From the NCBI RefSeq assembly GCF_900100755.1, contig NZ_FNCI01000011.1:1-64000 (forward strand): a DNA stretch of 64,000 nucleotides, read 5' to 3'. The stretch's first letter is position 1; each line of letters begins with the position of its first letter. The notes under the pieces were generated by a model, which had not been told where the DNA came from, made no database searches, and worked only from the letters and a program-made list of their open reading frames with translations. This document shows positions 37,475 through 49,204 of this stretch, in pieces. The DNA is from Onishia taeanensis (GTDB taxonomy: Bacteria; Pseudomonadota; Gammaproteobacteria; Pseudomonadales; Halomonadaceae). The position numbers and the translations under genes are program-made.

Positions 37475-38665
37475 GTGCCTGCCGACACACCGACCGATCA
37501 GCTACCCACCACCATGGCCGCGATGTTGCTGACCGGCCATGGCGACATCGACAAGCTCGTCTACCAGGATGACGTCGCGGTGCCAAAGCCTGGCCCCAGC
37601 GAGGTACTGGTGCGCGTCACCGCAACGGCCAAGAACAATACCGACCGCAAAGCCCGCGAGGGGCTATACCCCACCAAGGACAAGGGCGACGTCACCTCCT
37701 TTGCCATGGGCGGCTCACCGACGCTGACCTTCCCGCGCATCCAGGGCGCCGATGTGGTCGGCCATGTGGTGGCGGTGGGTGACGGCGTGGCCAGCGTGCG
37801 GATCGGCGAGCGCGGCCTTCTCGACTTCAACCTCTACCCGGATGAGCGCCACGACCTGAACCTGGTGCCAGATTACTATGGCCACGGCGCCGACGGCGGC
37901 TTCGCCGAGTACATCGCCGTGCCCTCGGATCAGTTTCATGCGGTCAGCAACCCGGGGCTACATGACGCCGAACTGGCCGCCATGGGCATGTGCTCCTATC
38001 AGACCGCCTATCACATGATGACCTCCGCTCGGGTCTCGGCCGGCGAGCGGGTGCTGGTCACCGGTGCCAGCGGTGGCGTGGGTACGGCGCTGATCCAGCT
38101 GTGCCGCATCGTCGGGGCAATTCCCTACGCCCTTAGCCAGCCGGACAAGGCCGAGGCCCTGCTCGCACTGGGCGCTGAAGCCGTACTCGACCGTAGCGAC
38201 ATGGCGGACTTTACCGAGCAGGTGAAGGCCGTGACCGGCGGTGCGCCCATCGATGCGGTGATGGATCTGGTCGGCGGCGAGATGACCGACCGCTTCATCG
38301 ATACCATGATCTTCGACATGCGAAAGCGCAGCAGCTACCCGCGCCTGTCGATTGCCGGCGCCAGCGGTGGCAACCTGAGCGAGATCATGTGGACACGCAT
38401 CTACCTATATCAGGTGCAGATCTTCGGCGTCTCCCACGGCACCCGCGCGGAAGCCGAACAGCTCGTCGAGTGGATCCGCAGCGGCCAGCTCAAGCCGGTG
38501 CTGCACGCCGCCTTCAAGCTCTCGGCCTTGCACGACGCCGAACGCTACTTCGTCAATCGCGGCAGCAACTACCTGGGCAAGATCGTGATCGTGCCCGATG
38601 CCCAGTGGGCCAAGCACGGCGCCCCCTTCGCCCTTAAAGACGCCCCGCAGGAGAGCGCGCAATGA
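37475..38665 (+). CDS. Zinc-independent MDR-family oxidoreductase (quinone oxidoreductase-like)
   Basis: A 396-aa medium-chain dehydrogenase/reductase: a GroES-like N-terminal domain (about 15-150) and a Rossmann domain with the NAD(P) motif GASGGVG (about 194-200). The catalytic-zinc cysteine and structural-zinc Cys cluster of alcohol dehydrogenases are not evident, so it is closer to quinone oxidoreductases and enoyl or imine reductases. The start is GTG at 37475 with AGAGGAG upstream. Its stop overlaps the start of the racemase-like gene (ATGA), so the two proteins probably act on linked substrates. The substrate is unknown. Confidence 0.82.
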   Translation: MPADTPTDQLPTTMAAMLLTGHGDIDKLVYQDDVAVPKPGPSEVLVRVTATAKNNTDRKAREGLYPTKDKGDVTSFAMGGSPTLTFPRIQGADVVGHVVAVGDGVASVRIGERGLLDFNLYPDERHDLNLVPDYYGHGADGGFAEYIAVPSDQFHAVSNPGLHDAELAAMGMCSYQTAYHMMTSARVSAGERVLVTGASGGVGTALIQLCRIVGAIPYALSQPDKAEALLALGAEAVLDRSDMADFTEQVKAVTGGAPIDAVMDLVGGEMTDRFIDTMIFDMRKRSSYPRLSIAGASGGNLSEIMWTRIYLYQVQIFGVSHGTRAEAEQLVEWIRSGQLKPVLHAAFKLSALHDAERYFVNRGSNYLGKIVIVPDAQWAKHGAPFALKDAPQESAQ

Positions 38666-39696
38666 GCCAGCCGCTGAGCTTTCAGTTGATCGACACCCAC
38701 GCCGGCGGCGACGTCAGCCGCATCGTCATCGGCGGCATCGCACCGCTGCCCGGCGCCAGCGTGCGCGAGCAGATGCACTACCTGCGCGATGACGCCGACG
38801 GCCTGCGCCGGCTATTGCTGGAGGAGCCCTACGGCATTCCGGAGATGTCGGTAGACCTGATCGTGCCGGCCACCGACCCGGCGGCCGCGGCGGGCTACAT
38901 CATCATGGAGGTGATGGGCTATCCCATCTATTCCGGGTCGAACACCCTGTGTACCGCTACGGCGGTACTGGAAAGCGGCATCGTGCAGAAGCAGGAAGGA
39001 CACCAGCAGTTCAAGCTGGAGTCGCCGGCGGGGCTCGTTCAGATCGACGCGCGCGTCGAGAACGGGGTGGTCGAAGCCATCACCTGCGAGGGCTTGCCCA
39101 GCTATATCGACACCTACCAGGCCAGCATTCAGGTGCCCGGCATCGGCAAGGTCACCTATTCGATTGCCTACTCGGGCGGTTTCTATGCGCTGGTGGATGC
39201 CGCCGAGCTCGGCTTCTCGCTGGTGCGCGAAGAAGAGCGGGCACTGGCTGACTGTGCCCACAAGATCGTCGAGGCTATTAAAGCCGAACGCGGCTTCTCT
39301 CATTACAGCCTGGGCGACGTCGGCCCGCTGCCCTTCCTGCACTTCATGGGGCCTGTCGAGCAGATCGCCGACGATTTCTATCGTTCGCGCTCGACCACCT
39401 ATGTGCATCCCGGCGTGATCTGTCGCAGCACCACCGGTACCGGCACATCCGCGCGCCTGGCCCTGATGCATCACGAGGGCCGCATCAAGCCGGGCGACCG
39501 GCTGGAAACCGTCTCGCTGCGCGAGACCGGTTTTATCGGTGAGTTCACCGGCACCCACCAGGAAGGCAGCCAGGCGGTGGTGGAAAACACCATCACCGGC
39601 AAGAGCTATGTACTGGCCCGCTCGGAGATCGTCGTCAACTGTGACGACCCGATGGTCGAGTGCCAAGGGCTTCGCCATATCCTTAAGCAGGACTAA
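38662..39696 (+). CDS. Proline racemase-superfamily protein with Ser/Thr in place of the catalytic Cys pair
   Basis: A 344-aa member of the proline racemase / hydroxyproline epimerase / trans-3-hydroxyproline dehydratase superfamily. The fold is clear, but at the first catalytic site the family MCGHN segment reads YSGSN (S91 for Cys, S93 for His). At the second, SPCGTGTSA reads STTGTGTSA (T258 for Cys), with Cys254 where an Asp is usual. Known members with Thr at the second site are dehydratases, so racemisation is unlikely and a dehydratase or other role is inferred. It is translationally coupled to the MDR oxidoreductase and convergent with the sigma-54 activator. Confidence 0.82.
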   Translation: MSQPLSFQLIDTHAGGDVSRIVIGGIAPLPGASVREQMHYLRDDADGLRRLLLEEPYGIPEMSVDLIVPATDPAAAAGYIIMEVMGYPIYSGSNTLCTATAVLESGIVQKQEGHQQFKLESPAGLVQIDARVENGVVEAITCEGLPSYIDTYQASIQVPGIGKVTYSIAYSGGFYALVDAAELGFSLVREEERALADCAHKIVEAIKAERGFSHYSLGDVGPLPFLHFMGPVEQIADDFYRSRSTTYVHPGVICRSTTGTGTSARLALMHHEGRIKPGDRLETVSLRETGFIGEFTGTHQEGSQAVVENTITGKSYVLARSEIVVNCDDPMVECQGLRHILKQD

Positions 39697-39735: not shown

Positions 39736-41205
39736 CTATGACGCCGGGCTGATACGCAGCCCGTGGCGCTGCATCTTGCGCACCACGCTTGGCTGACTGA
39801 TGCCCAGCCGTTCGGCGATGGCATAGCTGCTGCCAAGCTCACCGCACAGCGAGGCCAGAATGTCGCGTTCGATACGCGCCATGGCCTCCTTGAGCCCCTC
39901 GCCCTCGGCCAGCCGGCTCGCTTGCTCACCGGCGGCAGCTGGCCTGGCACCTATGCCGGGCGCAGTCGCCAGGCCCTCACTGACAGAGGGGTCGTTGACC
40001 GCCGCCAGGGCATCGCCCTCGGGCGTTGCGATCACCCGGCCCGCGGCAGAAAGCCAGGCGCGCTCCAGCCAGTTCTCAAGCTCGCGCACGTTGCCCGGCC
40101 AGTCGCGTCCCATCAGCTCCTGCCAAACGCCGCTGTCGAGAATCTTGTCGCCGCCATAGCGACGGTTGAGCTGCTTGAGCTGGCGCTCGACCAAGCCGGG
40201 AATATCCTCGCGACGCTCCCGCAGCGGCGGCAGGGTCACGGGAATCACGTTCAGCCGGTAGTAGAGGTCGAGCCGGAAACGGCCTTCCTCCACGGCCTCG
40301 GCCAGGTTCTGGTTGGTAGCTACCACCAGCCGGAAGTCGACCCGCCGCGGCGTGGTGTCGCCCAGCCGCATCAGGCTGCCGTCCTGAATCACCTTGAGTA
40401 GCTTGGTCTGCATGGCGAGCGGCAGTTCGCCGATTTCATCGAGGAACAGCGTGCCACCGGCCGCCTGCTCGAGGAGCCCCGCCTTGCCCTTGGGGTTGCT
40501 GCCGCTGAAGGCCCCCGGCTGATAGCCGAACATCTCTGACTCGAACAGGCTCTCGGGAATGGCGCCGCAGTTGACGTCGATGAAGGGCCCCTCGCCCCGC
40601 GCGCTCCAGCGGTGCAGTTGCCGGGCGAAGGCGGTCTTGCCGACGCCGGACTCGCCCAGCATCAGCACATTGGCATCGGTGGGGGCGACACGCTTGAGCA
40701 GCAGGGCGATTTCCTGCATTACGCTGCTGCGCACCTCCAGCACGCCCGCCAGGCCCGCCAGTGCCGGGTCCTGCTCGCCGGGAACCGCGCTCTCCCCGAC
40801 GCTGCGCTTGAGGTGGTCGCTGAAGCGCTGCTGCAGCAGGGCGTACTCCTCCTGCAGCAGTTGAAGGTCGGTTAAATCCATCGAGCGGCTGACCACGCAG
40901 GCCAGCCGCCCCTCGCTGAACACCGGATGTGCCTGGGCGACCACCCGCCGGCCGGTGCCGGTATGCTGCAGCAGCTGCGCCGGCTTGCCGGTGCGAATCA
41001 CCTCGAGACTCACCGACGGCTTGAGCACGCCCTGCTCGACCAGGGTCCGCACATTGCTGCCACGCAGTGCCTCGCAGGACATGCCATAGACGGCAGCGGC
41101 CCCTGGGCTTACATCCCGCACCTGGCCGCTGGCATCGACCACGAAGAAGTGATCATGGGCGGTATCGATGATGGTGCTGAGAATGGCACTGTCCAGCTCG
41201 CTCAT
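39736..41205 (-). CDS. PAS-containing sigma-54-dependent activator
   Basis: A 489-aa bacterial enhancer-binding protein. A PAS-like sensor domain lies at about 10-112, a short coiled linker at about 113-135, and the AAA+ domain has Walker A GESGVGKT (184-191) and Walker B GTLFLDEIGE (251-260). A C-terminal Fis-type HTH ends the protein (about 455-485, YAIAERLGISQPSVVRKM). The sigma-54 contact loop reads GAFSGS (231-236) where GAFTGA is the norm. No receiver domain is present, so a small ligand rather than phosphorylation is the likely signal. The ATG at 41205 has a GGAGGG site. It is divergent from the guanidinobutyrase operon, which starts with a -24/-12 promoter. Confidence 0.88.
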   Translation of the reverse strand: MSELDSAILSTIIDTAHDHFFVVDASGQVRDVSPGAAAVYGMSCEALRGSNVRTLVEQGVLKPSVSLEVIRTGKPAQLLQHTGTGRRVVAQAHPVFSEGRLACVVSRSMDLTDLQLLQEEYALLQQRFSDHLKRSVGESAVPGEQDPALAGLAGVLEVRSSVMQEIALLLKRVAPTDANVLMLGESGVGKTAFARQLHRWSARGEGPFIDVNCGAIPESLFESEMFGYQPGAFSGSNPKGKAGLLEQAAGGTLFLDEIGELPLAMQTKLLKVIQDGSLMRLGDTTPRRVDFRLVVATNQNLAEAVEEGRFRLDLYYRLNVIPVTLPPLRERREDIPGLVERQLKQLNRRYGGDKILDSGVWQELMGRDWPGNVRELENWLERAWLSAAGRVIATPEGDALAAVNDPSVSEGLATAPGIGARPAAAGEQASRLAEGEGLKEAMARIERDILASLCGELGSSYAIAERLGISQPSVVRKMQRHGLRISPAS

Positions 41206-41225
41206 GAGACGCCCTCCGGCGATAC

Positions 41226-41287
41226 ATTGTTGAATCAACGATACGACAATGCATCAACACAGCCCGCCAGGCAATGCATAACTGCAT
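41226..41287. promoter_or_regulatory. Candidate enhancer (UAS) region between the activator and gbuA
   Basis: Several dyads cluster here: GTTGA-A-TCAAC (41229-41239), TTGTTG-N11-CGACAA (41227-41249), and ATGCA-N4-TGCAT (41274-41287); ATGCAT also recurs at 41249. They lie roughly 45-105 bp upstream of the -24 box, where sigma-54 activators bind. Confidence 0.5.
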
Positions 41288-41344: not shown

Positions 41345-41486
41345 CTACTACTCCCTATAGAGAGGCGCCTGACCGTCACGACGCGCCAGGACGCTTTGCA
41401 AGGTCTTTTGAACAAGGACGGACTCGCGACCAGGACGCCTTACGCGAGAAGCCTTGACTACCGACACCAAGAACAAGGAGCAGGAC

Positions 41487-42437
41487 GTGAGCGACTTCAA
41501 TCAGCCATTGGGCGGCAATGACATGCCACGTTTCGGCGGCCCGGCCACCATGATGCGGCTGCCGACCCAGGAAACCGCCGCCGGCCTCGACGCCGCCTTC
41601 ATCGGCATTCCGCTGGATATCGGCACCTCGAACCGCCCCGGTGCCCGTCTGGGGCCGCGTCAGATTCGCGACGAGTCCCGCATGCTGCGCCCCTACAACA
41701 TGGCGACTCGCGCGGCGCCCTTCGACAGCCTGCAGGTCGCCGATATCGGCGATGTGCCGATCAACACCTTCCACCTGCCCAAGAGCATGGACATCATCAG
41801 CGACTTCTACGATGAGGTGCTCGCCCACGGCTGCGTGCCGCTCACCCTGGGCGGCGACCACACCGTGACGCTGCCGGTGCTGCGCGCCATTGCCAAAAAG
41901 CACGGCCCGGTGGGGCTGATCCATATCGACGCCCATGCCGACGTCAACGATCACATGTTCGGCGAACCCATCGCCCACGGCACGCCGATCCGCCGCGCCC
42001 AGGAAGAAGGCCTGCTCGACAGCCGCCGCGTCGTGCAGATCGGCCTGCGCGGCACCGGTTATTCCGCCGAGGATTTCGACTGGTGCCGCGACCAGGGCTT
42101 CCGCGTGGTCACCGCCGAGCAGTGCTGGCACAAGTCCCTCGAGCCGCTGATGGCTGAGGTACGCGAGCAGATGGGCGATGGCCCGGTGTACATCACCTTC
42201 GACATCGACGGCCTCGACCCGGCCTTCGCACCGGGCACCGGCACCGTGGAAGCGGGCGGCCTGACCATGCCCCAGGGCATGGAGATCGTGCGCGGCGCCC
42301 GCGGCCTCAACGTGGTCGGCGGCGACCTGATGGAAGTCGCGCCGCCCTACGACACCAGCGGCAATACCGCGCTGATGGGCGCCACCCTGCTTTACGAAAT
42401 GCTCTGCGTGCTGCCGGGCGTCATGCATCGCGACTGA
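41487..42437 (+). CDS. gbuA: Guanidinobutyrase (4-guanidinobutanoate amidinohydrolase)
   Basis: A 316-aa ureohydrolase that splits 4-guanidinobutyrate to GABA and urea. The protein closely resembles Pseudomonas aeruginosa GbuA as I recall it, including the N-terminal QPLGGNDMPRFGG and the closing LCVLPGVM. Manganese ligands of the arginase family are intact: H125 (GGDHT), D148, H150 and D152 (DAHADVND), D239 and D241 (DIDGLDP). The start is GTG 41487, preceded by AAGGAG at 6 nt; an in-frame TTG at 41454 lacks a site. First gene after the sigma-54 promoter. Agmatinase activity is an alternative, but the decarboxylase and dehydrogenase nearby favour guanidinobutyrate. Confidence 0.92.
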   Translation: MSDFNQPLGGNDMPRFGGPATMMRLPTQETAAGLDAAFIGIPLDIGTSNRPGARLGPRQIRDESRMLRPYNMATRAAPFDSLQVADIGDVPINTFHLPKSMDIISDFYDEVLAHGCVPLTLGGDHTVTLPVLRAIAKKHGPVGLIHIDAHADVNDHMFGEPIAHGTPIRRAQEEGLLDSRRVVQIGLRGTGYSAEDFDWCRDQGFRVVTAEQCWHKSLEPLMAEVREQMGDGPVYITFDIDGLDPAFAPGTGTVEAGGLTMPQGMEIVRGARGLNVVGGDLMEVAPPYDTSGNTALMGATLLYEMLCVLPGVMHRD

Positions 42438-42471
42438 CGGCTCAGGCTTCAAGGCACCCCACGACTGACCC

Positions 42472-42491
42472 GGCCAGCGACACCGCTGGCC
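42472..42491 (+). repeat. Intra-operon hairpin between gbuA and the YjiH-like gene
   Basis: GGCCAGCG-ACAC-CGCTGGCC is a perfect 8-bp stem in the 116-bp spacer. There is no T-run, so mRNA stabilisation or partial termination is more likely than full termination. Confidence 0.55.
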
Positions 42492-42553
42492 ATCGGGCCT
42501 GAATCACGCACTACACACCCTAAGCCCAATACAACTCCAATAGGGAATACCTC

Positions 42554-43939
42554 ATGTCTTCATCACTAGACGCGACCGACGAGATTGCCACCGATCCCGA
42601 ACCGATAAACCGCCGAGGGCTGCTGAAGTTTCTAATCCCCTCGCTGCTGGGGGTCGGCCTGTTCCTGGTGCCGTTTTCGGTCAACGACACCATCAATATC
42701 GGCATGGGCCTGATGGCCGACGGCCTGAAGGCGGCACTGGGCGATACTCTGCCGGCCATCGCGGTGTTCGTGCTCTGCCTGTCGGTGGTGCTCACCGCCG
42801 TGGTCAAGTTCGGCAAGCCCGCTTGGGGCCAGCAGGGCATCGGCAAGGAGCTCTTCGATGTAGCGCCGCTGTGGTTCGCCATGCGCGGCCTCGGCGCGCT
42901 GTTCGCGCTGATGACCTACTTCCAGGTCGGCCCTTCCTTTATCACCGCCGCCTACACCGGTGGGGTGATGCTCAACGACCTGGCGCCGGTCCTGCTGACG
43001 TTCTTCTTCTTCGCGGCCATTCTGCTGCCACTGCTGGTCGACTTCGGCTTCATGGAGTTCATCGGCAGCCTGGTGCGCAAGCCGTTTAGAATGATCTTCG
43101 GCCTGCCCGGTCGCAGCGCCATCGACGCTACGGCTTCCTGGATGGGGTCGGGCACCGTTGGCGTGCTGATCACCACCCAGCAGTACGAGCAGGGCTACTA
43201 CAATCGGCGCGAAGCGGCGGCCATCGCCACCAACTTCTCGATCGTGTCGATCGCCTTCGCGCTGCTGGTGACCAGCTTCATCGGCATCAACCACCTGTTC
43301 GTGCCGTTCTATCTGACCGTGGTGGTGTCGGGGCTTATCGCGGCGATCATCGTCCCGCGCCTGCCGCCGCTGTCGCGCAAGGCAAACACCTACCATGAGC
43401 CGGTCGGCTGCCAGATCGCCGAAGAAAGCACCGGCGACATGGGCCTTTTCCGCTACAGCCTGAGCATCGCCGTGGCTCGCGCCGAAACGGCACCCGGCCC
43501 CCGCGCGCTGGTGCGCGTTGCGCTCTTCAACGTCGCCGATATCTTCCTCGGCCTGCTGCCGCTGGTGATCGCGATTGGCACCGTGGCGCTGGTATTCGCC
43601 GAATTCACGCCGCTGTTCACCTGGCTCTCCTACCCGATGGTGCCGGTGCTCGAGTGGCTGCAGATTCCCGATGCCGCGGCCGCCGCACCGGCAACGCTGG
43701 TGGGCTTCGCCGATATGTTCCTGCCGGCGGTGCTGGCCAAGGACATCGACAGCGAACTGACCCGCTTCGTGATCGCCTGCCTGTCGCTGACCCAGCTGAT
43801 CTACATGTCGGAAATCGGTGCCCTGCTGCTCAAGTCGAAGATCCCGCTGAAGCTCTGGGAACTGGTGGTCATCTTCCTGCTGCGTACCGCCATCACCCTG
43901 CCGATCATTGCCTTGATCGCCCACGTCTTCGTCTTTTGA
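42554..43939 (+). CDS. YjiH-family membrane protein with nucleoside-recognition (Gate) domains
   Basis: A 461-aa inner-membrane protein with about ten hydrophobic segments. It carries the YjiH/nucleoside-recognition (Gate) type pattern twice, around residues 180-250 (PGRSAIDATASWMGSGTVG) and 375-430. No member of this group has a well-established substrate known to me. Its place between gbuA and the 2-ketoarginine decarboxylase suggests movement of arginine, a guanidino acid, GABA or urea across the membrane, but this is inference. Confidence 0.72.
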   Translation: MSSSLDATDEIATDPEPINRRGLLKFLIPSLLGVGLFLVPFSVNDTINIGMGLMADGLKAALGDTLPAIAVFVLCLSVVLTAVVKFGKPAWGQQGIGKELFDVAPLWFAMRGLGALFALMTYFQVGPSFITAAYTGGVMLNDLAPVLLTFFFFAAILLPLLVDFGFMEFIGSLVRKPFRMIFGLPGRSAIDATASWMGSGTVGVLITTQQYEQGYYNRREAAAIATNFSIVSIAFALLVTSFIGINHLFVPFYLTVVVSGLIAAIIVPRLPPLSRKANTYHEPVGCQIAEESTGDMGLFRYSLSIAVARAETAPGPRALVRVALFNVADIFLGLLPLVIAIGTVALVFAEFTPLFTWLSYPMVPVLEWLQIPDAAAAAPATLVGFADMFLPAVLAKDIDSELTRFVIACLSLTQLIYMSEIGALLLKSKIPLKLWELVVIFLLRTAITLPIIALIAHVFVF

Positions 43940-43950
43940 GGAGTGCTGAC

Positions 43951-45570
43951 ATGACCTGTGCCGAGCTGCTCATCGCCCTGCTGCGCGACCGTTACGGCGC
44001 CGATACCGTCTTCGGCATCCCCGGCGTGCATACCGTCGAGCTCTACCGGGGCCTCGCCGACAGCGGCCTGCGCCACATCACGCCGCGCCACGAACAGGGC
44101 GCCGGCTTCATGGCCGACGGCTATGCCCGCGCCACCGGCAAGCCCGGGGTCTGCTTCATCATCACCGGCCCAGGCATGACCAATATCGCCACGGCGATGG
44201 GCCAAGCACTGGCGGACTCGGTGCCGATGCTGGTGGTCTCGAGCGTCAATCGCCGCGACACCCTGGGGCGCGGCCAGGGGCGGCTGCACGAGTTGCCAAG
44301 CCAGCAGCAGCTGCTGGCCGGCGTCGCCCGTTTCAGCCATACCCTGCTCGATCCGGCGGCCCTGCCGGAGGTGCTGGCCCGGGCCTTCGCAGTCTTCAAT
44401 GGCATGCGCCCGGGGCCTGTGCATATCGAGATTCCCATCGATCTGTTCGATGCCGAGGTGTCGGCGCCCACCCAGTGGAGCGCCCCAGCCATTCATCGCC
44501 CGGCACCGGACCCCGCCGGGCTCGCCACCGCCGCTGCCTGGCTGCATGACGCCAAGCGTCCGCTGGTACTGCTGGGCGGTGGCTGCGTCGCGGCACCCGA
44601 GGCGGCCCGCGCGCTGGTCGAGCGCCTGGATGCGCCAACCGTCACCACCATCAACGCCAAGGGGCTGCTGGGGAACGGCGATGGCGCATCGCCCTCGCCA
44701 CGCCATCCGCTCGATCTGGGGGCCAATGCCGCCCTGCCCGCCGTGCGCGAGCTGGCCCATGATGCCGATGTGATTCTCGCCATCGGCACCGAACTCGGCG
44801 AGACCGACTACGATGTGGTGTTCGACGATGGTTTCCTGCTGACGGGCCGGCTGATCCGGGTCGATCTCGACCCCGAGCAGCTGGTGCGTAACCAGTCGCT
44901 CTCCCTTGGCCTGATCGCCGATGCCGGCGCCACTCTCGAAGCGCTGCTGGCCCACTTCCCGACGGCCCTGTTGCGTCAGGGACAGGTGCGCACCGCCGCG
45001 GCGCTGGAAGCCCTGGCGCTGCCCCTGGACCCGGCGTTCGCGCCCTTCGTGCCCTTGTTCGACACCCTGAACGAGGTGATGCCCGAGGCGATCCTCGTCG
45101 GCGACTCCTGCGCGCCGGTCTACGCCGCCAATCATCTGGTCACCAAGTCCGAGCCGCGGCGCTTCTTCAACGCCTCGACAGGCTACGGCACCCTGGGCTA
45201 CGGCCTGCCCGCGGCCCTCGGCGCCAAGCTGGCTCGCCCGGACCTGCCGGTGGTGGCGATGGTCGGCGATGGCGGCGTGATGTTCACGCTCTCAGAAATT
45301 GCCACCGCCGTAGAGGAGCGCCTGCCGGTGGTGATTCTGCTGTGGCACAACGGGGGCTACGAGGAGATTCGTCGCTACATGGCCGCCAACGGCGTCACCC
45401 CGATCGGCGTCAACCTGCATGCTCCCGAGTTTCAGACCCTGGCCAATGGCTTTGGCTGCCTATCCACCCGGGTCGAGGATCCTGCAAGTCTCGCCAAGGC
45501 CCTGGCGCAGCGCCCCGAACAGGGCCCCTTGCTGATCGAGATAGATGCCCATCGCTGGTCCACCGGCTGA
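43951..45570 (+). CDS. aruI: 5-guanidino-2-oxopentanoate (2-ketoarginine) decarboxylase, ThDP-dependent
   Basis: A 539-aa thiamine-diphosphate enzyme. In the P. aeruginosa arginine transaminase pathway AruI decarboxylates 2-ketoarginine to 4-guanidinobutyraldehyde. Visible features are the catalytic Glu in RHEQGAGFMADGYAR (E48), the central domain (about 190-340) and the diphosphate-binding motif GDGGVMFT (439-446) ending near N467. GAGGAG precedes the ATG, which is 11 bp after the upstream stop. The flanking guanidinobutyrase and aldehyde dehydrogenase support AruI over a general acetolactate synthase-like role, though substrate choice is not read from residues. Confidence 0.85.
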   Translation: MTCAELLIALLRDRYGADTVFGIPGVHTVELYRGLADSGLRHITPRHEQGAGFMADGYARATGKPGVCFIITGPGMTNIATAMGQALADSVPMLVVSSVNRRDTLGRGQGRLHELPSQQQLLAGVARFSHTLLDPAALPEVLARAFAVFNGMRPGPVHIEIPIDLFDAEVSAPTQWSAPAIHRPAPDPAGLATAAAWLHDAKRPLVLLGGGCVAAPEAARALVERLDAPTVTTINAKGLLGNGDGASPSPRHPLDLGANAALPAVRELAHDADVILAIGTELGETDYDVVFDDGFLLTGRLIRVDLDPEQLVRNQSLSLGLIADAGATLEALLAHFPTALLRQGQVRTAAALEALALPLDPAFAPFVPLFDTLNEVMPEAILVGDSCAPVYAANHLVTKSEPRRFFNASTGYGTLGYGLPAALGAKLARPDLPVVAMVGDGGVMFTLSEIATAVEERLPVVILLWHNGGYEEIRRYMAANGVTPIGVNLHAPEFQTLANGFGCLSTRVEDPASLAKALAQRPEQGPLLIEIDAHRWSTG

Positions 45571-45643
45571 GGGTCTCGATCTGTAAGGCTGCATGGCATC
45601 GACAGATCCCGTTTCACCCCAACTCTTGATAAGGACAACAACA

Positions 45644-46960
45644 ATGAGCCAATCCTCGTCACCCTTCGGCCAGGACACCCTGGCCGCCGATAACGTCGAA
45701 CGCAGCCTGGGCATGCCCGGCACCTTCGCCCTGTGGCTGGGTGCCAATGTGGTGGTCACCACCATCCTTACCGGCATGCTGCTGGTGCCTGACCTGAGCT
45801 TTCAGCACGCCATGCTGCTGGTGCTGATCGGCTCTGCGGTCGGCATCATCCCGCTGGTGCTAATCGGCCTGATGGGCCAGCAGACCGGCATGACCACCAT
45901 GGTGCTGGCGCGCGGCACATTCGGGCGACTGGGGGCGATGTTCCCGGCCTGGGTCAACCTGTTCGCGCTGATCGCCTGGAGCTGGATCCAGGCGCTGCTG
46001 GCCGGCATGAGCCTCGACTATGCCGTCTCGAGCCTGACCGGCTATTCCAACGTCGCGCTGTTCACGGTGCTATGCGAGGCACTGGTGGTAATGATCACCC
46101 TGCGTGGCCACCTGGGCATCGAGAAGGCGGAAAAGCTTGCCGCGGTGCTGATGCTGCTGCTGTCCGGGGTGGTGGTGTTCGCCTTGGCCCGCAACTACGA
46201 CCTTCCCTCGATCACCGACATGGAAGCGACGGGCGCCCTCGGTGCCGGTGTGGCCTTCGATATCATCATCGCCACCGCCTTTTCGTGGATTCCGCTGGCC
46301 GCCGACTACAACCGCCACTGCCGCTCGCCCAAGGCCGCGGTCATCGGCACCTGGGCCGGCTATGTCACCGCCACCCTGATCGCCATGGGCCTTGGCGCCA
46401 CGGTCTCGGCCTTGTCGGTCTCGATCGGCTTCCCGCAGACCTATGACCCGACCCAGCTGCTGAGCAGCTTCGGCTTCGGACTGCCCGCCGCCCTGGTGAT
46501 CTTCTTCTCGGTGCTGACCACCAACGTGATGTGCGTCTACAGCGCGACCCTGTCGTACATGAGCGTGCGCACCCAGAGCCCCTTCTGGAAGCCGGCCCTG
46601 ATCATCGGCGTCATCTCGGTGCTGGGCTCGCTGATTCCTGGCATCCTCGACCAGTTCCAGACCTTCCTGCTGATTATCGGCAGCGTCTTCATCCCGGCCT
46701 TCTCGCTGATGATCGTCGACTACTTCCTGGTCGACCGCGACCGCTACACGCCCAAGCACCTGATCACGGACGCCGCGACCCTGCCGGCGATCAATCCGCA
46801 GGCGCTCGGCTGCTACGTGGTCGGGGCGGTTCTCGCCTACTACTGGAACTGGGTCGCGCCGCTGAGCTTCGGCGCATCGCTGCCGGTATTCGTGCTAACT
46901 GGGACGCTCTACTTCGTCATCAGCAAGCTGTCCAGGCGCCAGCAGAAGGCCCGCGCATGA
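45644..46960 (+). CDS. NCS1-type cytosine/purine permease-family transporter
   Basis: A 438-aa twelve-helix transporter of the nucleobase:cation symporter-1 family (CodB-like). An early helix reads GANVVVTTILTGMLL and the conserved SWIPLAADYNRH stretch lies near residue 225. NCS1 members carry nucleobases, hydantoins, allantoin and other small nitrogen compounds. Here the substrate is probably a guanidino compound or another cyclic nitrogen compound fed to the neighbouring enzymes. AAGGAC lies before the ATG. Its stop overlaps the hydrolase start (ATGA). Confidence 0.82.
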   Translation: MSQSSSPFGQDTLAADNVERSLGMPGTFALWLGANVVVTTILTGMLLVPDLSFQHAMLLVLIGSAVGIIPLVLIGLMGQQTGMTTMVLARGTFGRLGAMFPAWVNLFALIAWSWIQALLAGMSLDYAVSSLTGYSNVALFTVLCEALVVMITLRGHLGIEKAEKLAAVLMLLLSGVVVFALARNYDLPSITDMEATGALGAGVAFDIIIATAFSWIPLAADYNRHCRSPKAAVIGTWAGYVTATLIAMGLGATVSALSVSIGFPQTYDPTQLLSSFGFGLPAALVIFFSVLTTNVMCVYSATLSYMSVRTQSPFWKPALIIGVISVLGSLIPGILDQFQTFLLIIGSVFIPAFSLMIVDYFLVDRDRYTPKHLITDAATLPAINPQALGCYVVGAVLAYYWNWVAPLSFGASLPVFVLTGTLYFVISKLSRRQQKARA

Positions 46961-47706
46961 GTTCAACGTCCTCGCGCCTCGAGCGCATCGCGCCGGATCA
47001 GTGGTATCGCACCCAGCGCCTGAGTGATGGCATCACCCTGATCGACGAGCCTTGGATCAAGCCGTTCTTCCGCTGCAATATCTGGCATGTCCGAGGACGC
47101 GACCGCGATCTGCTGGTGGACTTCGGCCTGGGTGCCGTGCCCCTGCGCCGGCATGTCGCGCTGCTCGCCGAGCACGACCTGGTCGGCGTGGCCAGCCACA
47201 CCCACTTCGATCATATCGGGGCGGCCAGCGAGTTCGACTGCTGCCACGTGCATGCCGCCGAAGCCGATATCCTCGCCGCGCCGGATAACGCTCGCACCCT
47301 GGCCGATGCCTTTCTCAACGATGAGATGTTCGACGCCCTGCCTCCGGCGCCCTATGCCCACAGCGGCTATCGCATCCCAGTACCACCCAAGATCGCCCAC
47401 CTCGAAGATGGCGACGTCATCGACCTGGGCGACCGACGCTTCGAGGTCATTCACACGCCGGGCCATTCGCCCGGCGGCATCGCCCTTTGGGAAGCCGCCA
47501 CCGCTACCCTGATCTCCGGTGACCTGGTCTATGACGGCCCGCTGATCGAGGACGCCTGGCACAGCAATCTCGCTGACTATGCCGCCAGCATGCGGCGCCT
47601 GCGCGCCCTGCCGGCCCGCACCGTTCACGGCGGCCACTTCCCGAGCTTTTCTGGCGAGCGGCTGAACGCCATGATCGACGACTGGCTTGCCCATCACGAT
47701 CAATGA
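46957..47706 (+). CDS. Metallo-beta-lactamase-fold hydrolase
   Basis: A 249-aa protein with the full MBL motif set: H81-T-H83-F-D85-H86, a later His in HTPGHSPGG, Asp in ISGDLVYDG and His in HGGHFPSF, enough for a two-metal site. MBL hydrolases open esters, lactones, lactams and thioesters. Coupled by ATGA overlap to the permease and followed by the aldehyde dehydrogenase, it may hydrolyse a cyclic or acylated intermediate; the substrate is unknown. No signal peptide is seen, so it is cytoplasmic. Confidence 0.83.
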   Translation: MSSTSSRLERIAPDQWYRTQRLSDGITLIDEPWIKPFFRCNIWHVRGRDRDLLVDFGLGAVPLRRHVALLAEHDLVGVASHTHFDHIGAASEFDCCHVHAAEADILAAPDNARTLADAFLNDEMFDALPPAPYAHSGYRIPVPPKIAHLEDGDVIDLGDRRFEVIHTPGHSPGGIALWEAATATLISGDLVYDGPLIEDAWHSNLADYAASMRRLRALPARTVHGGHFPSFSGERLNAMIDDWLAHHDQ

Positions 47707-47758
47707 CCTCTCGCCCCACCTCTCTAGACCCATCTCTCGACTTATGACGGAGCGCGTC

Positions 47759-49204
47759 ATGCAAAAGATTGACCAGCAGTTCATCAACAATCACTGGGTG
47801 GCCAGCCAGAGTCAGCGCCGGCTGGCCGTCATGGACCCGTTTCGGGAAACGGTGATCGCCGAAGTCACCGCCGGCGACCCGGCCGATGTCGGGGCCGCCG
47901 TTACCGCGGCCCGTCAGGCGCAGCCCGCCTGGGAAGCCCTTGGCGGCAATGCCCGTGGCGACTATCTGGACGCCTTCGCCGAGGCCCTGAGCGCACGCCG
48001 CGAGACGCTGACCCGGCTCTCGTCCACCAATAACGGCAAGGCGCTGATGGAAGCCGGCATCGACCTGGACGATGCCATCGCCTGCTACCGCTACTATGCC
48101 GGTCAGGCCCGCGCTCTGGAGGCCCGGCAGGGGCGCCTGGTGGAACATGCCATGGACGGCGTCGAAGCCCGCTGCTATGAAGATCCCGCCGGCGTGGTCG
48201 GCCTGATCGCGCCCTGGAATTTCCCGCTGGTGACCAGCGCCTGGAAGCTCGCCCCGGCACTGGCCGCCGGCTGTACCGCAGTCTTCAAATCGTCGGAAGT
48301 CACACCGCTGCCCGAGCTGGCGCTGGCCGATATCGCCCTCGAGATCGGTCTGCCCGCCGGTGTGCTCAACCTGCTCAACGGTGACGGCGACGGCATCGGC
48401 GCGCCCCTGAGCCAGCATCCCGGCATCGACAAACTCTCCTTCACCGGCAGCAATGTGGTCGGCGAGAAGATCATGCAGGCCGCCGCCCGTGGCGTGCGCG
48501 GCGTGTCGCTGGAGCTCGGCGGCAAGTCGCCGATCCTGGTGCTCGACGATGCCGACGTCGAGCAGGCCGCCGATTGGGTGATGGCCGGCATCTTCTTCAA
48601 CAGCGGCCAGATCTGCTCGGCCACCTCGCGCCTGATCGTCCACGAGGCGATCAGCGAGCCGCTGTATGCCGCCCTCGGCGAACGTATCGACGCGCTGACG
48701 CTGGGCGACCCGCTGGATGAGGGCACCGACATGGGCCCGATGACCAGCGAACGCCAGCGCGATGCCGTGCTGTCCTACCTGGCGCAGGCCGAACGCGAAG
48801 GGCTCGAGGCCGTCCGCGACGCCCGCCATCGCACCCTGCCGGATCAGGGCTTCTTCGTCGCCCCGGCGCTGTATCGCGACGTGCCGACCGACAGCCGCCT
48901 GTGGCGCGAGGAAATCTTCGGCCCGGTGCTGTGCGCCAGAAGCGTGGCAAGTGAAAAAGAAGCGATTGCGCTGGCCAACGACTCGGCGTTTGGCCTTGCC
49001 GCCACCGTGATCAGCGGCGACGCCGAGCGCGCCAAGCGCGTCGGCCGCGCCCTCAGGGCGGGCAGTATCTGGTTCAATACCGAGCAGTTGGTGCTGCCCG
49101 AAACGGGCTGGGGCGGCTTCGGCATCAGCGGCATTGGCCGCGAGCTGGGCCCCTGGGGGCTGGCCGGCTATCTCGAGGTCAAGCATATCGTGGGGCCGGC
49201 CTGA
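47759..49204 (+). CDS. Aldehyde dehydrogenase (4-guanidinobutyraldehyde / betaine-aldehyde type)
   Basis: A 481-aa NAD(P)-dependent aldehyde dehydrogenase with the general-base Glu E252 (SLELGGKSP) and the nucleophile C286 (NSGQICSATS). The NPW-type proton relay reads APWNFPL (151-157). By context it oxidises the decarboxylase product 4-guanidinobutyraldehyde to 4-guanidinobutyrate; betaine aldehyde dehydrogenases are close relatives. The ATG at 47759 has GGAG 7 nt upstream. It is the last gene of the operon, closed by a strong terminator. Confidence 0.88.
   Translation: MQKIDQQFINNHWVASQSQRRLAVMDPFRETVIAEVTAGDPADVGAAVTAARQAQPAWEALGGNARGDYLDAFAEALSARRETLTRLSSTNNGKALMEAGIDLDDAIACYRYYAGQARALEARQGRLVEHAMDGVEARCYEDPAGVVGLIAPWNFPLVTSAWKLAPALAAGCTAVFKSSEVTPLPELALADIALEIGLPAGVLNLLNGDGDGIGAPLSQHPGIDKLSFTGSNVVGEKIMQAAARGVRGVSLELGGKSPILVLDDADVEQAADWVMAGIFFNSGQICSATSRLIVHEAISEPLYAALGERIDALTLGDPLDEGTDMGPMTSERQRDAVLSYLAQAEREGLEAVRDARHRTLPDQGFFVAPALYRDVPTDSRLWREEIFGPVLCARSVASEKEAIALANDSAFGLAATVISGDAERAKRVGRALRAGSIWFNTEQLVLPETGWGGFGISGIGRELGPWGLAGYLEVKHIVGPA

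Follow-up and report, generated by a model that had tools for sequence, protein, structure and literature searches.

What reaction would a protein of the proline-racemase superfamily catalyse when both of its catalytic cysteines have been replaced, and what pathway would it serve? The question is raised by a gene of Onishia taeanensis in a 64,000-nucleotide stretch of contig NZ_FNCI01000011.1 (the window). We refer to the encoded enzyme as PRS, and to a genome carrying a gene of the same subfamily as PRS+. We computed its fold, catalytic residues, subfamily, operon pairing, and the linkage of PRS and its partner to ectoine genes (features in Table 1).

Table 1. Features of the reductase–PRS locus, with positions in the window.
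Feature	Position	Strand	Basis
Zinc-less medium-chain dehydrogenase/reductase (quinone-reductase-like), proposed NAD(P)H-dependent dehydroectoine reductase	37475..38665	+	Adjacency, overlap, similarity to 4j6f, homologues inside ectoine operons
PRS enzyme of the Ser/Thr/Cys254 subfamily, proposed 5-hydroxyectoine dehydratase	38662..39696	+	Open reading frame, Pfam match, clade with 100% SH-aLRT support, model closest to the trans-3-hydroxyproline dehydratase (t3HypD) 4K7G
S91 codon; the residue is proposed to take the alpha proton and forms the SGSN motif together with S93 and N94	38932..38934	+	Invariant in the intact subfamily; aligns with catalytic Ser90 of 4K7G
Codon of C254, which stands where relatives have an Asp coordinating the prolyl nitrogen	39421..39423	+	Cys in 109/109 subfamily sequences, Asp in 26/26 Ser-type relatives
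Codon of T258, second-position Thr as in t3HypDs, on the opposite face	39433..39435	+	Alignments

A Ser/Thr enzyme with cysteine at position 254

The PRS open reading frame is complete and encodes 344 residues. It matched the Pfam Pro_racemase family (PF05544) over its full length (residues 10–331) with 281.8 bits against a cut-off of 27, which places it in the superfamily. The first-pass annotation had taken S91 and T258 as the catalytic pair, with the His after the first site and the Asp before the second also changed, and our alignments and an AlphaFold2 model confirmed both points. S91 occupies the first catalytic position (SGSN, 91–94) and T258 the second (CRSTTGTG, from 254); S93 takes the place of the first-motif His and C254 that of the second-motif Asp, a change that proved important. 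Intact cysteines hidden by a shifted register, for which a structure-based alignment had been suggested as a check, are ruled out by gapless alignments to 4K8L, 4K7G and 1TM0 through both motifs and by the model. This model (pLDDT 91.6) superposed best on 4K7G (TM 0.91, rmsd 1.5 Å), and in it S91 starts helix 92–104 and T258 starts helix 259–271, the two-helix N-terminus arrangement of PF05544. The residue changes are not due to chance, because S91, S93, N94, C254 and T258 were identical in every intact subfamily member aligned.

The pair had appeared novel against known activities listed as Cys/Cys or Cys/Thr, a list that is outdated, as Ser/Thr with a His-to-Ser change is known in t3HypD/4HypE-type enzymes (cluster 3). 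The Ser90/Thr256 enzyme B9K4G4 (4K7G) of this cluster is a trans-3-hydroxyproline dehydratase by structure and assay, and its study remarks on the Ser that replaces His and on an Asn by which the catalytic Ser is held in position (Zhao et al. 2014, PMC4113996). Such Ser/Thr enzymes were later named type II (Watanabe et al. 2015, PMC4364671). This assayed and solved dehydratase is one of the Ser/Thr members that share the SGSN motif, and it also fits our model best; by analogy, PRS likely dehydrates a beta-hydroxy amino acid. To this extent the earlier suggestion stands.

Judged by the relatives examined, in no other of which it occurs, the unusual residue is C254, the Ser/Thr pair being already known. 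The constancy of this cysteine (Table 1) extends to one sequence from the actinobacterium Tsukamurella. About 35 positions are fixed within the Cys254 subfamily and rare outside it. Identity to the window protein is 50% or more for its members, compared to at most 39% for the other superfamily members seen, and a fully supported branch (100% SH-aLRT) separates the subfamily, with its two sub-clades A and B, from the rest. By sequence, the Ser/Thr/Cys254 proteins are a distinct subfamily.

The subfamily was found in 26 of the 294 genomes of the window's order (25 intact, one broken). A scan of the genome collection gave 359 relatives, the best 80 of which came mainly from Halomonadaceae and also from Marinobacter, Halopseudomonas and Alloalcanivorax. 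At least one superfamily member was present in 54 of 61 Marinobacter genomes, nearly always as a single copy, and it is therefore plausible that A1U2K1, which with Q1QV19 is among the proteins that PMC4113996 describes as tested, belongs to the Cys254 subfamily. The Marinobacter members that were read had Cys254, except for second or third copies in two genomes (G673 and G714). A 398-genome sample of the phylum contained no further subfamily member outside the window's order, and its best other match (E 3e-83) had Asp. A plasmid of Tsukamurella tyrosinosolvens (Actinomycetota; L193:8010-10128) carries an overlapping reductase–dehydratase pair with the Cys254 motif, likely acquired by horizontal transfer. 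At one locus (L124, genome G074) internal stops break the dehydratase gene and the upstream reductase is retained. On a Sinorhizobium americanum plasmid, a proline-racemase-family gene that is 39% identical (L235:7956-9023) follows the genes of a glycine betaine/proline ABC transporter.

The coupled reductase and the neighbouring genes

The conserved, overlapping gene upstream of PRS, which the first-pass annotation had missed, points to ectoine. Its product has GADVVG where zinc enzymes have GHE, together with the Rossmann motif GASGGVG, as shown by its translation and by alignment to 4j6f (S. meliloti family), its best PDB relative; it is thus a zinc-less enzyme. In the window its stop and the PRS start overlap by 4 bp (ATGA) and the reductase is translationally coupled to the PRS gene. 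The GTG listed as the reductase start codon may be too far upstream by a few codons. The reductase adjoins the PRS gene at 93 of 94 subfamily loci. The 4-bp overlap recurred in 70 of these 93, and an overlap or a gap of no more than 51 bp in 92, the sole exception being a broken copy. One genome (G019; loci L119 and L234) has a sub-clade B dehydratase and a sub-clade A reductase on separate contigs.

Further downstream (41454-49204) the window encodes an agmatinase-family hydrolase, a Gate-domain permease, a 5-guanidino-2-oxopentanoate decarboxylase (PRK07524, 768 bits), an NCS1 permease, a metallo-beta-lactamase-fold protein and an aldehyde dehydrogenase, a cluster that is probably a guanidino-compound catabolic island. 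PRS had been suggested to feed the decarboxylase. This part of the suggestion fell on comparison of neighbourhoods: gbuA and the Gate permease, TPP decarboxylase, NCS1, MBL and ALDH genes accompany PRS at only two of 94 loci, both in Onishia, and the guanidino/arginine genes are absent within 10 kb of the PRS gene in another O. taeanensis genome (L032). Since the link is local to Onishia, arginine or 3-hydroxyarginine as a substrate is without support. The phylogeny proposed as a check did recover the Ser/Thr/Cys254 proteins as a clade, but one without clade-wide gbuA linkage.

The minus strand at 39736-41238 encodes a sigma-54 activator with a PAS domain, convergent to the dehydratase gene and divergent from gbuA. 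Its best curated match was PrdR, the proline reductase regulator, below cut-off, and similar regulators adjoin the pair at some Marinobacter loci. As a functional partner it was rejected, being weakly conserved (nine of 98 loci at ≥35% identity, several of them distant). A branched-chain amino-acid degradation context (mmsB, enoyl-CoA hydratase and acyl-CoA dehydrogenase genes; L095, L099, L118 and L119) was also rejected, as it was confined to Marinobacteraceae.

Ectoine genes around both partners

Four PRS+ genomes of one genus (g53) share the gene order teaA-teaB-teaC-usp-reductase-PRS, where teaABC-usp is an ectoine/hydroxyectoine importer. Its binding protein resembles Halomonas TeaA (3gyy, E 1.2e-174; 2vpn, 9.5e-171), compared to E 4e-118 for UehA (3fxb). 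The pair in this position belongs to sub-clade B in three of the genomes (L121-L123) and to sub-clade A in the fourth (L113), so it is possible that it was replaced in place as a unit, or that it joined the transporter twice.

The reductase has its own links to ectoine. The Paracoccus yeei cluster ehuD-eutA-eutB-eutC-doeA-doeB-ssd-atf-reductase ends in a gene 66% identical to the window reductase, and the ehu/eut clusters of Sinorhizobium (S. meliloti) and Rhizobium have genes beside atf and ssd that are 45–48% identical. In further Rhizobiaceae-type genomes of the phylum sample the homologue was inside ectoine operons in 10 of 10, while five more distant homologues (38–40%) and one from Nitratireductor were outside them. 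A reductase tree placed ectoine-linked and PRS-linked genes in both clades, the Rhizobiaceae genes with sub-clade B and that of Paracoccus with sub-clade A, with some long branches that leave its details unsure. Genetic linkage to ectoine genes was thus found for the pair behind teaABC-usp, and for the partner in ehu/eut/doe operons.

Gene content across the order, compared here with kinship ignored, pointed the same way. Ectoine synthase (ectC) was present in all 26 PRS+ genomes compared to 122 of 268 PRS-negative ones (p 9e-9), ectD in 20 compared to 34, doeA in 13 compared to 8, and either ectD or doeA in 24 compared to 38. Within Marinobacter the association with ectD is only suggestive (36/54 PRS+ and 2/7 PRS-negative genomes, p 0.09). 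A close EutB match was missing in nine of 12 genomes that were both PRS+ and doeA+. Taken overall, the reductase–PRS pair is very probably connected to ectoine. This link is apparently unreported, since none of the open-access papers searched contains both 'proline racemase' and 'ectoine'; nor does any of them contain both 'proline racemase' and 'Halomonas'.

A proposed route from 5-hydroxyectoine to ectoine

What would the pair do to an ectoine? We favour, with moderate confidence, the reading that PRS dehydrates (4S,5S)-5-hydroxyectoine and that the reductase then turns the product into ectoine. It would follow, and we hold this about as firmly, that halophiles possess an undescribed two-enzyme route for undoing EctD hydroxylation, and that this reductase is also what alphaproteobacterial ectoine operons encode as 'adh'. 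The reading draws on the coupling of the two genes in 92 of 93 loci, and again on the actinobacterial plasmid with Cys254; on the teaABC-usp-reductase-PRS order, kept in one genus with both sub-clades of the pair; on the reductase homologues in ectoine operons; on the presence of ectC, and of ectD or doeA, in the PRS+ genomes of the order; and on the PRS+ doeA+ genomes that have no close EutB match. It is also consistent with a deletion experiment. About half of the added hydroxyectoine was still lost from H. salifodinae IM328 lacking doeA (PMC11142988), which fits the reading, and the genome of Halomonas sp. 328 (locus L044), which has the accession prefix JADOTW in common with IM328, carries the pair. 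However, ectoine was partly lost in the same mutant too (PMC11142988), which the pair would not explain.

We infer the substrate, the reaction steps, their direction and the role of C254 from these comparisons, as follows. The substrate carboxylate would be held between the N-termini of the two helices, where S91, itself held by N94, would take the C4 (alpha) proton, and the C5 (beta) hydroxyl would be lost as water in a syn-elimination. T258 would replace the second acid/base because re-protonation from the far face is unwanted. The product, 2-methyl-1,6-dihydropyrimidine-4-carboxylate (dehydroectoine), would be reduced by the upstream enzyme with NAD(P)H to ectoine, which could serve as a compatible solute or enter the doe pathway; reducing the C=C bond of dehydroectoine would be a natural task for a zinc-less medium-chain reductase. 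Cysteine in place of Asp may make room for the amidine and the 2-methyl group beside the ring nitrogen.

5-Hydroxyectoine can be viewed as the six-membered counterpart of trans-3-hydroxy-L-proline. The former is (4S,5S) and the latter (2S,3S). By our own reasoning from the CIP rules, the two share the same alpha/beta geometry because the substituents rank alike in both, at the carbon bearing the carboxyl group as well as at the adjacent hydroxylated one. The same syn-elimination would therefore apply, without the inversion step of the EutABC proposal. Native 5-hydroxyectoine is 5S (PMC5924519).

Several observations count against this reading. Among the Gammaproteobacteria, the pair adjoins ectoine genes in a single genus (four genomes) and stands alone elsewhere. 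As ectD is missing in 18 of 54 PRS+ Marinobacter genomes, these would have to import hydroxyectoine, and in the Marinobacteraceae members, which lack a close doeA, the role would be salvage rather than catabolism. The pair may be redundant in the window's own genome, where an EutB-like gene is located at 13 kb from doeA. Asp could be expected to be retained for an amidinium substrate, and the exact substrate of the reductase could differ, since it coexists with EutC in ehu/eut operons.

C254 would also fit if the pair acted after ring opening by DoeA or EutD, on N-alpha-acetyl-3-hydroxy-2,4-diaminobutyrate (hydroxy-alpha-ADABA), dehydrating it and reducing it to alpha-ADABA, as a neutral amide nitrogen would have no need of Asp. 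5-Hydroxyectoine is hydrolysed by EutD, and hydroxy-alpha-ADABA has been put forward as the compound on which EutABC act (PMC13188858). We nevertheless consider this unlikely: a close DoeA is missing from all 10 PRS+ Marinobacteraceae genomes (f20), so that no ring-opened compound would be formed there, and the known substrates of the proline-racemase fold are cyclic.

A plain trans-3-hydroxyproline dehydratase, with the medium-chain enzyme as an unusual pyrroline-2-carboxylate reductase, would agree with the closest characterised relatives of PRS in sequence and fold, which are Ser/Thr t3HypDs. Yet PRS fell far below the NCBIfam equivalog cut-off for this activity (260.2 bits against 550; also 136.8 against 540), it has lost the Asp ligand of the prolyl nitrogen and differs at the roughly 35 conserved positions, and no OCD- or MLD2-type Pyr2C reductase was recognised beside its gene. 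Homologues of this type reportedly lacked ProR, 4HypE and t3HypD activity in a 2014 screen, according to UniProt entries. With both partners linked to ectoine genes, this alternative seems improbable.

It is doubtful, too, that PRS is an epimerase for amino acids of the ectoine type, acting for instance on C4 of ectoine or of hydroxyectoine. Inversion (EutA) is part of the proposed ectoine pathways, and some Ser/Thr-cluster members epimerise 3- or 4-hydroxyproline (PMC4113996), but Thr is a poor second acid/base and the constant reductase partner fits a dehydration product, not an epimer. The Thr at 258 departs from the Cys/Cys or Ser/Cys of proline racemases and 4-hydroxyproline epimerases, for which PRS scored 194.6 bits against 556 and 160.1 against 376. 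Finally, dehydration of a hydroxyarginine-like compound for the 2-ketoarginine decarboxylase and guanidinobutyrase encoded some 1.8–10 kb downstream in the window is highly improbable, as those genes are absent at 92 of 94 loci, L032 included, and are separated from the reductase–PRS operon by the convergent regulator gene.

Removal of the hydroxyl from 5-hydroxyectoine has been proposed and is stated to be biochemically unproven (PMC5924519), and the eut genes are unevenly distributed, with eutA missing in Halomonadaceae and eutBC in all Vreelandella and a third of Halomonas (PMC13188858). The conserved candidate pair makes this step directly testable. If 5-hydroxyectoine is indeed the substrate, a six-membered amidine would be added to those of the proline-racemase fold, and an unassigned gene of rhizobial ectoine operons would gain a role. 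We suggest the pair as a deletion target in hydroxyectoine production strains.

How does the proposed pair compare with known systems? PRS resembles the t3HypD 4K7G (cluster 3, PMC4113996) in fold (TM 0.91), in its SGSN Ser motif with Asn, in its second-site Thr and in a likely syn-dehydration. It differs in being only 34% identical, in the Cys for Asp at 254, Tyr for Met at 90 and, in most subfamily members, Thr for Pro at 257, and in its operon partner and context. In the 5-hydroxyectoine route proposed for EutA, EutB and EutC, EutA inverts the hydroxyl and EutB yields 2-methyl-1,6-dihydropyrimidine-4-carboxylate, which is then reduced (Schulz et al., as cited in PMC5924519). The overall reaction proposed for our pair, dehydration to this compound and its reduction, would be the same. 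However, EutB and EutC have unrelated folds (threonine-dehydratase-like and ornithine-cyclodeaminase-like), and the reductase–PRS pair would need neither PLP nor hydroxyl inversion. The 'alcohol dehydrogenase' encoded in ectoine operons of alphaproteobacteria (S. meliloti family, PDB 4j6f), an 'adh' whose undefined role in ectoine clusters has been remarked on (PMC5924519), belongs to the family of the upstream reductase (45–66% identity), but accompanies eutABC-doeAB without a PRS dehydratase.
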